A stretch of DNA of 64,000 bases, taken from contig JAFWCB010000005.1 in assembly GCA_017537025.1 (NCBI GenBank), forward strand, positions 496,001 through 560,000, in the 5' to 3' direction. This document shows positions 46,924 to 49,107 of this stretch, piece by piece. The translations under genes were made by a program, and so were the position numbers. The DNA comes from Sediminibacterium sp. (GTDB lineage: Bacteria > Bacteroidota > Bacteroidia > Chitinophagales > Chitinophagaceae). The stretch's first letter is position 1; each line of letters opens with the position of its first letter. The notes under the pieces were generated by a model. That model was not told where the DNA came from, ran no database searches, and saw only the letters and a program-made list of their open reading frames with translations.

Positions 46924-47013
46924 TTTTTGAATTATAAATTATGAATTATAAATTAAGAATTGAGAATTCTTACCTCCAAATCCATATTTCTTAATTCATA
47001 ACTCTTAATTCTT
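46924..47013. repeat. AATTATAAATTATG-type inverted repeat
   Basis: GAATTATAAATTATGAATTA-like units at 46929-46965 meet inverted units TTAATTCATAACTCTTAATT at about 46989-47013. They can form a long A+T-rich hairpin between asd and the lipoprotein gene, possibly ending asd transcription. The right arm reaches the asd stop codon. Confidence 0.65.
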
Positions 47014-48004
47014 AATGAATAATCCCCTTGGCAAGTAAATGCTCCGCTATTTGTACCGCATTAGTAGCAGCTCCTTTACGCAGGTTATCACTTACAATCC
47101 ACATATTGAGTGTATTGGCTTGTGTTTCATCTCTGCGTAATCTTCCTACAAACACCTCGTCTTTTTCATGTGCCCATAAAGGCATGGGATATTGTTGATT
47201 GGCTATATCATCTTGTACAATAATACCCGGTGCATTCTCCAAAATAGATTTTACTATTGCCAAATCGAAATCATTTTCAAATTCAATATTTACGCTTTCG
47301 CTATGTCCGCCTACTACGGGTATACGAACTGTAGTAGCAGTTACGCGAATGCTATCATCTTGCATAATTTTTTTGGTTTCATTTACCATCTTCATTTCTT
47401 CTTTGGTATACCCATTATCTAAGAAAACATCGATTTGCGGAATTACATTCAAATCGATTTGGTATTTGTACGCCATTTCTCCAGCAATATTTTTTCTTTC
47501 ATTAAAGAGTTGGTCTACCGCTTTTTTTCCCGTACCGGTAACACTTTGATAAGTACTAACCACTACCCTTTTTATTTTATAACGCGTATGCAAAGGTTGT
47601 AATGCTACCACCATTTGAATGGTTGAGCAATTAGGGTTGGCGATGATAAAGTCTTCGCTTGTAAGAACATTGGCATTCACTTCCGGCACTACTAATTTCT
47701 TAGTAGGATCCATTCTCCATGCAGAAGAATTATCAATTACCCGAATACCTGCGGCTGCGAATTTTGGCGCCCATTCTAATGAAGTACTTCCACCTGCAGA
47801 AAAAATAGCCACTGCTGGTTTAGCAGCTATTCCATCTTCCATACTCACTACAGTATAGTTTTTACCTTTAAAAGACACTTCTTTACCTACTGAACGTTCT
47901 GATGCAACCGGTACTATTTCTGTAACCGGAAAATTACGTTCTGCTAACACTTGTAACATTTTGGTTCCTACCAGACCTGTTGCGCCAACTACAGCTACTT
48001 TCAT
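47012..48004 (-). CDS. asd: Aspartate-semialdehyde dehydrogenase
   Basis: 330 residues from the ATG at 48004 (MKVAVVGATGLVG). A longer frame from a TTG at 48106 runs through the leader hairpin and is not real. NADP-binding GATGLVG at the start, catalytic Cys in ANPNCSTIQ, and His in VVGGHSESV. The enzyme reduces aspartyl phosphate to aspartate semialdehyde, the branch point to lysine (and diaminopimelate), threonine, methionine and isoleucine. It is preceded by a leader with a short reading frame and a terminator (see 48054-48208), so attenuation by aspartate-family amino acids is likely. It follows the PfkB gene in the same direction. Confidence 0.96.
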   Translation of the reverse strand: MKVAVVGATGLVGTKMLQVLAERNFPVTEIVPVASERSVGKEVSFKGKNYTVVSMEDGIAAKPAVAIFSAGGSTSLEWAPKFAAAGIRVIDNSSAWRMDPTKKLVVPEVNANVLTSEDFIIANPNCSTIQMVVALQPLHTRYKIKRVVVSTYQSVTGTGKKAVDQLFNERKNIAGEMAYKYQIDLNVIPQIDVFLDNGYTKEEMKMVNETKKIMQDDSIRVTATTVRIPVVGGHSESVNIEFENDFDLAIVKSILENAPGIIVQDDIANQQYPMPLWAHEKDEVFVGRLRRDETQANTLNMWIVSDNLRKGAATNAVQIAEHLLAKGIIH

Positions 48005-48025
48005 ATTTGTTCCCCCCAAGTTTTG

Positions 48026-48042
48026 CTCCGCCAAGGGCGGAG
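48026..48042 (-). repeat. Short GC hairpin in the asd untranslated leader
   Basis: CTCCGCC (48026-48032) and GGCGGAG (48036-48042) form a seven-pair stem with a three-base loop, 21 bases before the asd ATG. It has no T-run, so it is not a terminator. It may be a mobile short palindrome or part of the leader fold. Confidence 0.55.
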
Positions 48043-48053
48043 GTTTTATGTTT

Positions 48054-48082
48054 AAAAAAAAGCCCCGACGATTTGTCGGGGC
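48054..48082 (-). terminator. Leader terminator of asd (attenuator stem)
   Basis: GCCCCGAC (48075-48082) pairs with GTCGGGGC (48062-48069) around a five-base loop, followed by eight T on the minus strand (48054-48061). It lies between the probable asd promoter and the asd start, so it would control read-through into asd. It might also serve as the end of the upstream PfkB gene, 105 bases away. Confidence 0.8.
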
Positions 48083-48122
48083 CTGGTTATTTATATTGAC
48101 ATACAAACGTACATAGCCCCTC

Positions 48123-48167
48123 CTATGAAGGTTTTTTTGTGCGTTTTGTATGTTTCATTATTATCAT
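48123..48167 (-). CDS. Candidate asd leader peptide
   Basis: A 14-codon frame from an ATG at 48167 reads MIIMKHTKRTKKPS. A second ATG at 48158 would give an 11-residue version, which suits a transcript starting near 48168. Ten of 14 residues are Met, Ile, Lys or Thr, all end products of the Asd pathway, and four are Lys. The stop codon (48123-48125) is two bases from a GGGGC segment (48116-48120) that can pair with the left arm of the leader terminator. The arrangement fits a ribosome-stalling attenuator. No sequence conservation has been checked, so the peptide is a prediction. Confidence 0.5.
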   Translation of the reverse strand: MIIMKHTKRTKKPS

Positions 48168-48173
48168 CTCGTG

Positions 48174-48208
48174 CAAATATAATGTATTACTTCAAAGAAA
48201 TATCAAAA
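48174..48208 (-). promoter_or_regulatory. Probable asd promoter
   Basis: TTTTG (48204-48208), a 22-base spacer and TATATTTG (48174-48181), the last an exact match to TAnnTTTG. It lies across the end of the PfkB gene. Transcription would start near 48168. Confidence 0.6.
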
Positions 48209-49107
48209 TTCACTAACTGTACAAATTCTGCTAAACGGGCATCAATATCTGCTTTTGAAATTTCGCGCAAACGTTGGGTACCGAATTTTTCAACACAGAA
48301 GGAAGCCATGGCACTACCAATAATAATAGCTGTTTTCATATTTTCAAAAGAAATATCTTTTGTTCGCGCAATATGTCCAATAAAACCTCCGGCAAATGTA
48401 TCGCCGGCACCGGTTGGATCAAATACTTCTTCTAAAGGCAATGCGGGAGCAAAGAAAACACTGTTGCCATGAAACAATAAAGCACCATGTTCCCCTTTTT
48501 TAATGATGAGGTATTTGGGTCCTAATGTCATTATTTTTTGTGCAGCTTTAACTAAAGAATATTCGCCGCTTAGCTGTCGGGCTTCGCTATCGTTTACCAT
48601 TAATAAATCAACCATAGAAATGGTTTTCAATAATTCGTCGAGGGCAATTTCCATCCAAAAATTCATCGTGTCCATCACGATCAATTTAGGTCTTGTTGTC
48701 AACTGCTCAATTACACTTCTTTGTACGGAAGGCAATAAGTTACCTAACATCAAGAACTCACAATCTTGAAAACTTTCGGGTACAACCGGCTGAAAGTTTT
48801 CTAATACATTCAATTGTGTATCCAGGGTATCACGGGTATTCATATCCATATGATACTTACCACTCCAAAAAAAAGTTTTCTCGTCTTTTTTAATTTGTAC
48901 TCCCGCTAAATCTACATTACGGGCTGTGAGTGCATCCAGCTCTGCTTGTGGAAAATCGCCACCTACTACTGAGATCTGCTTTACCGGCGTGAAATTAGAT
49001 GCGCACCAGGCAATATAGGTACCTGCACCGCCAATAATTTTATCACTCTTACCAAACGGCGTTTCGATAGCATCAAAAGCCATAGAACCAACAACTACTA
49101 AAGACAT
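48187..49107 (-). CDS. PfkB-family sugar or nucleoside kinase
   Basis: 306 residues. GGAGTYIAWCASNF near 26-39 is the N-terminal substrate lid region, and DPTGAGDTFAGGF near 245 is the PfkB signature with the catalytic Asp. Members phosphorylate sugars or nucleosides (ribokinase, fructokinase, adenosine kinase); the specific substrate cannot be read from the motifs. TAATTTCG at 49133-49140 is a possible -7 box. Its end carries the asd promoter. The neighbouring asd shares direction but probably has its own transcript. Confidence 0.93.
   Translation of the reverse strand: MSLVVVGSMAFDAIETPFGKSDKIIGGAGTYIAWCASNFTPVKQISVVGGDFPQAELDALTARNVDLAGVQIKKDEKTFFWSGKYHMDMNTRDTLDTQLNVLENFQPVVPESFQDCEFLMLGNLLPSVQRSVIEQLTTRPKLIVMDTMNFWMEIALDELLKTISMVDLLMVNDSEARQLSGEYSLVKAAQKIMTLGPKYLIIKKGEHGALLFHGNSVFFAPALPLEEVFDPTGAGDTFAGGFIGHIARTKDISFENMKTAIIIGSAMASFCVEKFGTQRLREISKADIDARLAEFVQLVNFDISLK

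Follow-up and report, generated by a model that had tools for sequence, protein, structure and literature searches.

A candidate lysine-sensing transcription attenuator upstream of asd in the Chitinophagaceae

In a genome of Sediminibacterium sp., the asd gene is preceded by a compact leader that is likely a classical ribosome-mediated transcription attenuator sensing charged tRNA-Lys and controlling asd. The leader lies in a 64,000-nucleotide stretch of DNA, hereafter the window, and displays the features of this class, including a frame of cognate codons, a terminator before the gene, an antiterminator on the 5' arm of that terminator, a frame-overlapping hairpin that can sequester the antiterminator strand, and a stop codon that is suitably placed under an assumed ribosome footprint. 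The frame, the pairing, and the terminator all recur in relatives beyond chance, and it is from such comparisons that we infer translation of the leader, stalling, termination, and a response to lysine. Ribosome-mediated attenuation of asd had been put forward in the original prediction, made from the sequence of the window, and it is still the best reading of the comparative data, with a conserved frame, covarying structures, and cognate genes.

Architecture of the leader and its promoter

Direct inspection of the minus strand confirmed each of the leader elements previously named, i.e., the exact promoter box, the short frame, GGGGC, GCCCC, the T-tailed hairpin, and asd, whose ATG at 48004 lies 50 bases beyond the run of eight T (Table 1). 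Lys, Thr, Met, and Ile account for 10 of the 14 codons of the leader frame. The asd product scored 432.7 bits against TIGR01296 (cut-off 324.2). The leader promoter lies just beyond the stop codon of a PfkB-family kinase gene, named at the superfamily level only because all 18 of its NCBIfam matches fell below curated cut-offs. A second small hairpin, CTCCGCC-CTT-GGCGGAG, is present at 48021-48042; just after it, and ahead of the asd ATG, comes a GGGGGGAAC stretch. Short hairpins of this kind together with GGGGGGAAC were also seen by eye in several relatives.

Table 1 Features of the asd leader and its flanking genes in the window.
Feature	Positions	Strand	Basis or remark
-7 promoter box TATATTTG	48174-48181	minus	Bacteroidota sigma-A type
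Leader frame MIIMKHTKRTKKPS, ATG to TAG stop	48123-48167	minus	
Leader-frame Lys codons	48153-48155, 48144-48146, 48135-48137, 48132-48134	minus	
Arm a, frame codons forming the 5' side of P1	48138-48153	minus	Fold, P1 covariation, duplex permutations
P2, small hairpin CCTTC / GAGGG	48118-48131	minus	Fold and both-sided changes
Strand b (GGGGC 48116-48120), putative antiterminator 5' strand	48115-48120	minus	Duplex test and b-to-d folds
Arm c, 3' side of P1	48099-48113	minus	Folds
ATATAAAT, pairs with arm c (48101-48108) as antiterminator inner hairpin	48089-48096	minus	Fold
Strand d (GCCCC 48078-48082), terminator 5' arm, pairs with b	48078-48083	minus	Duplex test and fold
Intrinsic terminator (stem 48060-48084, eight T 48054-48061)	48054-48084	minus	Sequence and covariation
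asd, aspartate-semialdehyde dehydrogenase	47012-48004	minus	TIGR01296 and NF011456 above cut-off
PfkB-family sugar kinase, upstream gene	48187-49107	minus	Superfamily-level call

Without its terminator, the leader (48085-48169) folds into a long hairpin of -17.7 kcal/mol (z = -3.53), and none of 200 dinucleotide shuffles was as stable. The hairpin consists of P1, in which 48138-48153 pairs with 48099-48113, enclosing P2 at the stop codon; the loop of P2 contains the stop codon, and its 3' arm overlaps strand b (GGGGC). Arm c has a second partner, as part of it pairs with 48089-48096 inside the antiterminator. In the window, the energies of the P1/P2 stretch and of the fold up to the end of strand d with the antiterminator inside are close (-17.7 versus -19.3), and the minimum-energy fold of the full-length leader is P1/P2 with the terminator (-36.6). 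The competing P1/P2 hairpin and the inner hairpin of the antiterminator had been overlooked in the original prediction. An H-type pseudoknot of a:c and b:d was also considered and is better read as two alternatives; the fold up to d holds b:d and the c hairpin and lacks P1.

Upstream of the -7 box, TTTTG at 48204-48208 is a possible upstream promoter element, judged by the consensus. The -7 box of Flavobacterium occupies positions -12 to -5 (available text of PMC9723704), and with this spacing transcription would start at 48169, leaving a 5' UTR of about 2 nt. In 60 of 84 leaders, the pattern TAnnTT[TC]G begins 10-18 nt ahead of the aligned leader start, and several of the other 24 rows have, by eye, a promoter box with a slightly earlier ATG. 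The leader frame is probably translated almost leaderless, and near-leaderless translation has been reported for Sinorhizobium trpL in the sections of PMC10117765 consulted. Yet, leaderless mRNAs comprise only 5.5% in Flavobacterium psychrophilum according to the same excerpt of PMC9723704, which counts against such a start. A role of strand b as the Shine-Dalgarno sequence of a downstream frame was considered and dropped, as the Flavobacterium passage in PMC9723704 describes such sequences as absent. If correct, a near-leaderless start would make the leader a compact system for ribosome-polymerase coupling in the phylum.

Distribution and covariation among relatives

The asd loci came from 60 related genomes, 57 of which had asd and 30 of whose loci were taken, and from a genome collection, from which the best 80 of 594 matches were used. 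Upstream DNA was obtained for 108 of these 110 loci (not L026 and L101), in a few cases for less than 300 nt. A motif set drawn up after viewing the sequences picked 40 leaders, with some genomes represented in both sources, and removal of L033, whose leader is the same as that of L008, left 39. P1/P2-type and terminator hairpins recur in the folds of these 39 leaders. From a MAFFT alignment of 35 of them, RNAalifold recovered the terminator only, because indels shift the arms, and a covariance model, R1, was therefore built from 14 well-aligned leaders, to which the others were aligned.

Searching 298 genomes of the order with R1 gave 60 places in 56 genomes, 54 of them in the family of the window, taken to be Chitinophagaceae. 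At 52 of the 60 places, an asd start follows within ~200 nt, three matches precede dapA (L146, L158, and L159), and two precede hisG (L162 and L167; E 0.0012 and 0.0042). The remaining three (L164, L168, and L171) are probably chance matches, having a terminator and, by eye, no convincing leader frame. Two of the carriers belong to named species of Chitinophagaceae, Sediminibacterium roseum (L034) and Niastella yeongjuensis (L046), and L031, the near-twin of the window, bears the name Flavihumibacter, a genus of the same family. In the window's own genome, the R1 search gave no second convincing copy; a weak match (L141, E 3.83) does not look like a leader by eye. Follow-up of 21 family genomes without an asd-leader match (the 20 listed as having no match at all, with 222 further negative genomes unlisted, and G251, which holds L164) found asd in 20. 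By eye, a leader is present at L205, L206, and L211 and possibly at L204, and 14 of the 20 loci have none. Although widespread in the family, the leader is therefore not present in all of its members. Two loci of the window's own genus (L202 and L203) have kept the terminator before asd and lack promoter, frame, and P1/P2, which we read as natural loss of the attenuator.

The same two loci lend some support to another explanation, in which the hairpin ends the transcript of the upstream kinase, asd is transcribed from a separate promoter farther downstream, and the short frame is there by coincidence. Gene order offers further support, as 36 of 86 asd loci have a same-strand PfkB-family gene at most 800 nt upstream of asd (34 with a leader, and L202 and L203 without), in a survey where 17 loci had too little upstream sequence. 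However, 33 leader loci with at least 700 nt before asd have no PfkB-family gene within 800 nt, among which 31 lack any PfkB match and two (L043 and L056) have one about 2 kb away. Moreover, conservation extends jointly to the frame, P1/P2, and the spacing of the promoter. A hairpin that merely ends the PfkB mRNA, a possibility already raised in the original prediction, is accordingly weakened and appears highly unlikely.

Covariation was examined in 86 chosen asd and dapA leader loci, leaving out the hisG, chance, and duplicate matches as well as the weak L055 and L070; 84 passed E <= 0.002 against R1, and L206 and L211 failed. In this 84-row alignment, which is fitted to R1 and so leans toward the model, and whose source genomes were chosen by the analyst, 88.8% of the cells are paired and 25 of 27 pairs have double changes. 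For P1, P2, and the terminator, 237 double-change cells compare with 70.0 +/- 7.8 after shuffling, none of 500 shuffles matched the alignment on any measure, and slid controls reached at most 59 cells. Changes on both sides were found in P2 (helix 5) and in the terminator (helix 6). The short frame and the covarying arms anticipated in relatives were found as far as the frame, P1, P2, and the terminator are concerned. Column covariation of b:d, which is outside the model, was not significant (89.1% paired, a percentage reached by 106 of 500 shuffles), because b is nearly invariant and the registers shift.

In a register-free duplex test, in which relatedness was uncontrolled, own partners did better than every one of 5000 permutations for each of a:c, b:d, and d:e. 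Of the 84 leaders, 72 for a:c, 68 for b:d, and 73 for d:e had an own partner that equalled or surpassed the mean cross partner, and the b:d duplex averaged -11.88 with own and -11.03 with cross partners. The clearest case is the lineage of the window, in which b and d changed together from GGAAGG/CCTTCC, with GGAAGG being the form of b in most relatives, to GGGGC/GCCCC. When the stretches from b to d were folded, leaving out L150, all 83 leaders had at least 4 b:d pairs in their minimum-energy fold, and 82 of the 83 had an antiterminator inner hairpin of at least 4 pairs.

Conserved codons and the predicted ribosome switch

Leader frames were read in 83 of the 84 rows, a few being misread by the pattern, and their consensus peptide is roughly MxxxKHTKRxKKP. 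Lys occupies core positions 1, 4, 7, and 8 in 78, 77, 76, and 68 of the 83 frames. Its two codons AAA and AAG are exchanged, with counts of 51/26 at position 4 and 16/60 at position 7, and Asn codons occur at neither. The Met and Ile codons, which the original prediction had counted as part of the signal, are unconserved across the leader frames.

The effect of a ribosome was modelled by masking the transcript from -18 to +12 relative to the A site and folding it at 30 C to just past d. The model covered 72 of the 84 rows, as 12 were skipped by the frame finder, and core codons were defined by position, being Lys in most. The outcome, which partly follows from the model's own assumptions, was a mean probability of b:d pairing, P(b:d), of 0.77 when core codon 1, 4, or 7 occupied the A site (above 0.5 in 72/72) and of 0.02 when the stop did (above 0.5 in 0/72). 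Intermediate values were obtained at the last Lys codon (mean 0.59) and without a ribosome (mean 0.61), each above 0.5 in 56/72. For the window, P(b:d) was 0.51 without a ribosome and 0.59, 0.59, and 0.63 with one at core codons 1, 4, and 7, respectively; the last Lys codon gave 0.54 and the stop 0, so that nearly all of the contrast in this leader is due to the stop. In the model, the difference between a stalled and a finished ribosome fits attenuation well, but a leader without translation does not come out as clearly switched off. The closeness of the stop codon to the antiterminator strand, pointed out originally for the window, holds in all modelled leaders: in 72/72, the distance of the stop from b is between -5 and +16 nt, and a ribosome there would cover b under the assumed footprint.

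In the proposed mechanism, the asd mRNA would start about two bases ahead of the leader AUG. When lysine is scarce, the ribosome may stall at the Lys codons, breaking P1/P2 and freeing strand b, which could then pair with d, enclosing the c hairpin, such that no terminator forms and RNA polymerase continues into asd. With ample lysine, a ribosome at the stop would cover b, leaving d to pair with the terminator 3' arm, and transcription would stop before asd. In an untranslated leader, P1/P2 may hold b and thereby favor termination.

It could be argued that the leader is instead a ligand-binding, riboswitch-like RNA that is not translated, given the strongly conserved structure and the full-length minimum-energy fold of P1/P2 with the terminator. 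This is barely credible in view of the coding signature, i.e., conserved lysines with synonymous exchange, the stop position relative to b in every modelled leader, and the lack of any Rfam match at gathering thresholds. The window matched no Rfam family at threshold, including RF01732 and RF00168, and a search of 12 loci with asd, dapA, hisG, or aspartokinase leaders gave only one tRNA. Below threshold, the best hit of the window leader was MicC (33.1 bits, E 0.0023, with a gathering score of 90), and Trp, Phe, and Thr leaders also appeared; all of these were set aside as far below their thresholds.

The amino acid signal and related leaders

The genes accompanied by such leaders bear on which amino acid is sensed by the attenuator. 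The dapA gene encodes the first lysine-specific step. Among 30 chosen genomes, which included those already known to have a dapA leader and all of which have dapA (TIGR00674 on the G209 protein), a leader precedes dapA in four, three of one genus (L172, L173, and L174) and one of another (L176); dapA of the window's own genome (L191) has no leader. Within the same genome, asd and dapA leaders are 73-77% identical, and one dapA leader compared with all asd leaders gave a median of 71%. These figures fit a common origin of the two, which is likely, and do not support a recent copy. A Lys-rich frame before lysA at L238 was set aside, as it looks by eye like the 3' end of a coding gene.

At aspartokinase loci of bifunctional length (frames of 822-883 aa), runs of Thr and Ile codons are found upstream in four of five genomes (L223, L224, L225, and L227, by eye), with complete ATG frames in L224 and L227; the aspartokinase locus of the window genome (L226) has no such run. 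They are possibly a threonine leader of another type. In all four, a stretch that contains GGG comes after the stop, and a U-tailed terminator is not obvious.

Asd serves the synthesis of Lys, Thr, Met, and Ile, an established pathway, and the attenuator could be real and yet respond to threonine, or to several aspartate-family amino acids jointly, as thrL does with Thr and Ile. Among the 83 frames, 71 do have Thr at core position 3 and 37 have it at position 6, and in the accessible part of PMC10117765 a Sinorhizobium frame, SEP5, with six Thr and three Lys codons is described before 'aspartate dehydrogenase'. However, position 3 lies within the paired arm a and position 6 is variable, lysine-specific dapA has related leaders in those 4 of 30 chosen genomes, and the bifunctional-length aspartokinase loci carry Thr/Ile runs of their own in 4/5 genomes. 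A threonine or joint signal is thus rather unlikely. Codons match the downstream genes, and asd goes with lysine. The part of the original prediction that named attenuation is upheld, and its signal, aspartate-family amino acids in general, gives way to what is most likely lysine, for which four Lys codons are kept.

In line with a codon-based mode of control, the lysine riboswitch RF00168 was absent from all 10 chosen genomes searched, with 4 of 14 control genomes positive. This L-box shares lysine control of lysine-pathway genes with the putative attenuator and differs in being a metabolite-binding RNA. If the proposed reading is right, it addresses how lysine synthesis is controlled in bacteria lacking the riboswitch, and for many members of one family the leader would answer this question directly and in a testable way. 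It would also extend codon-based attenuation to lysine, and the covariance model could be used for annotation.

The leader resembles known systems to different degrees. The thr operon leader thrL (RF00506) has a short cognate-codon frame, mutually exclusive hairpins, and a terminator before an aspartate-pathway gene, all shared by the window leader, which differs in having Lys instead of Thr/Ile codons and a near-leaderless start; the Thr_leader model RF00506 scored 15.3 bits on it against a gathering score of 55. Although Sinorhizobium SEP5 is likewise a Lys/Thr-rich translated frame in a related position, it belongs to an alphaproteobacterium, and the text seen of PMC10117765 gives no terminator pairing. 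RNA or attenuator-like elements upstream of asd are also found in another phylum, namely the asd motif RF01732 of Lactobacillales and an attenuator-like sequence before asd in Streptococcus mutans, the latter by a title cited in PMC2864571 and both from the portion of that source consulted. In the same phylum as the window, leader-peptide attenuators have been proposed from transcriptome data upstream of amino-acid operons of Flavobacterium psychrophilum, with conserved 5' elements named for pheA and hisG among others (PMC9723704, in the excerpt available). The proposed mechanism is the same, and in the main text of PMC9723704 the words 'asd' and 'lysine' do not occur. Among the literature matches listed, with subscription papers outside coverage, there was no lysine-codon attenuator of asd or dapA. 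We know of no lysine member of the ribosome-mediated attenuator class. The attenuation is thus of a known type, and its combination of Chitinophagaceae and lysine appears to be without an earlier description among the matches listed.

Finally, the lysine model R1 itself picks up two hisG leaders, and it could be speculated that one scaffold, comprising a near-leaderless frame, P1/P2, a dual-partner arm c, b:d, and a terminator, has been reused in Chitinophagaceae by changing codons and place, with Lys before asd and some dapA genes and His before hisG. This idea is tentative; if true, these leaders would form a modular family of attenuators that takes the place of the lysine riboswitch. By eye, the hisG leaders (L162, L167, and L222) have a His-codon frame and a terminator before hisG, as his operon leaders do, and the strand matching the terminator arm sits at the stop codon, as in the asd leader, from which they differ in their His-codon runs and in the sequence of b and d. 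In the window genome, hisG (L222) is preceded by a His-rich leader, MNKNIHTHHHFLPIG followed by a stop, with a TAGCTTTG box 7 nt before the ATG. Its frame ends about 94 nt before the match start, and the stop codon lies within GGGTAGGC, which can pair with the terminator arm GCTTACC.
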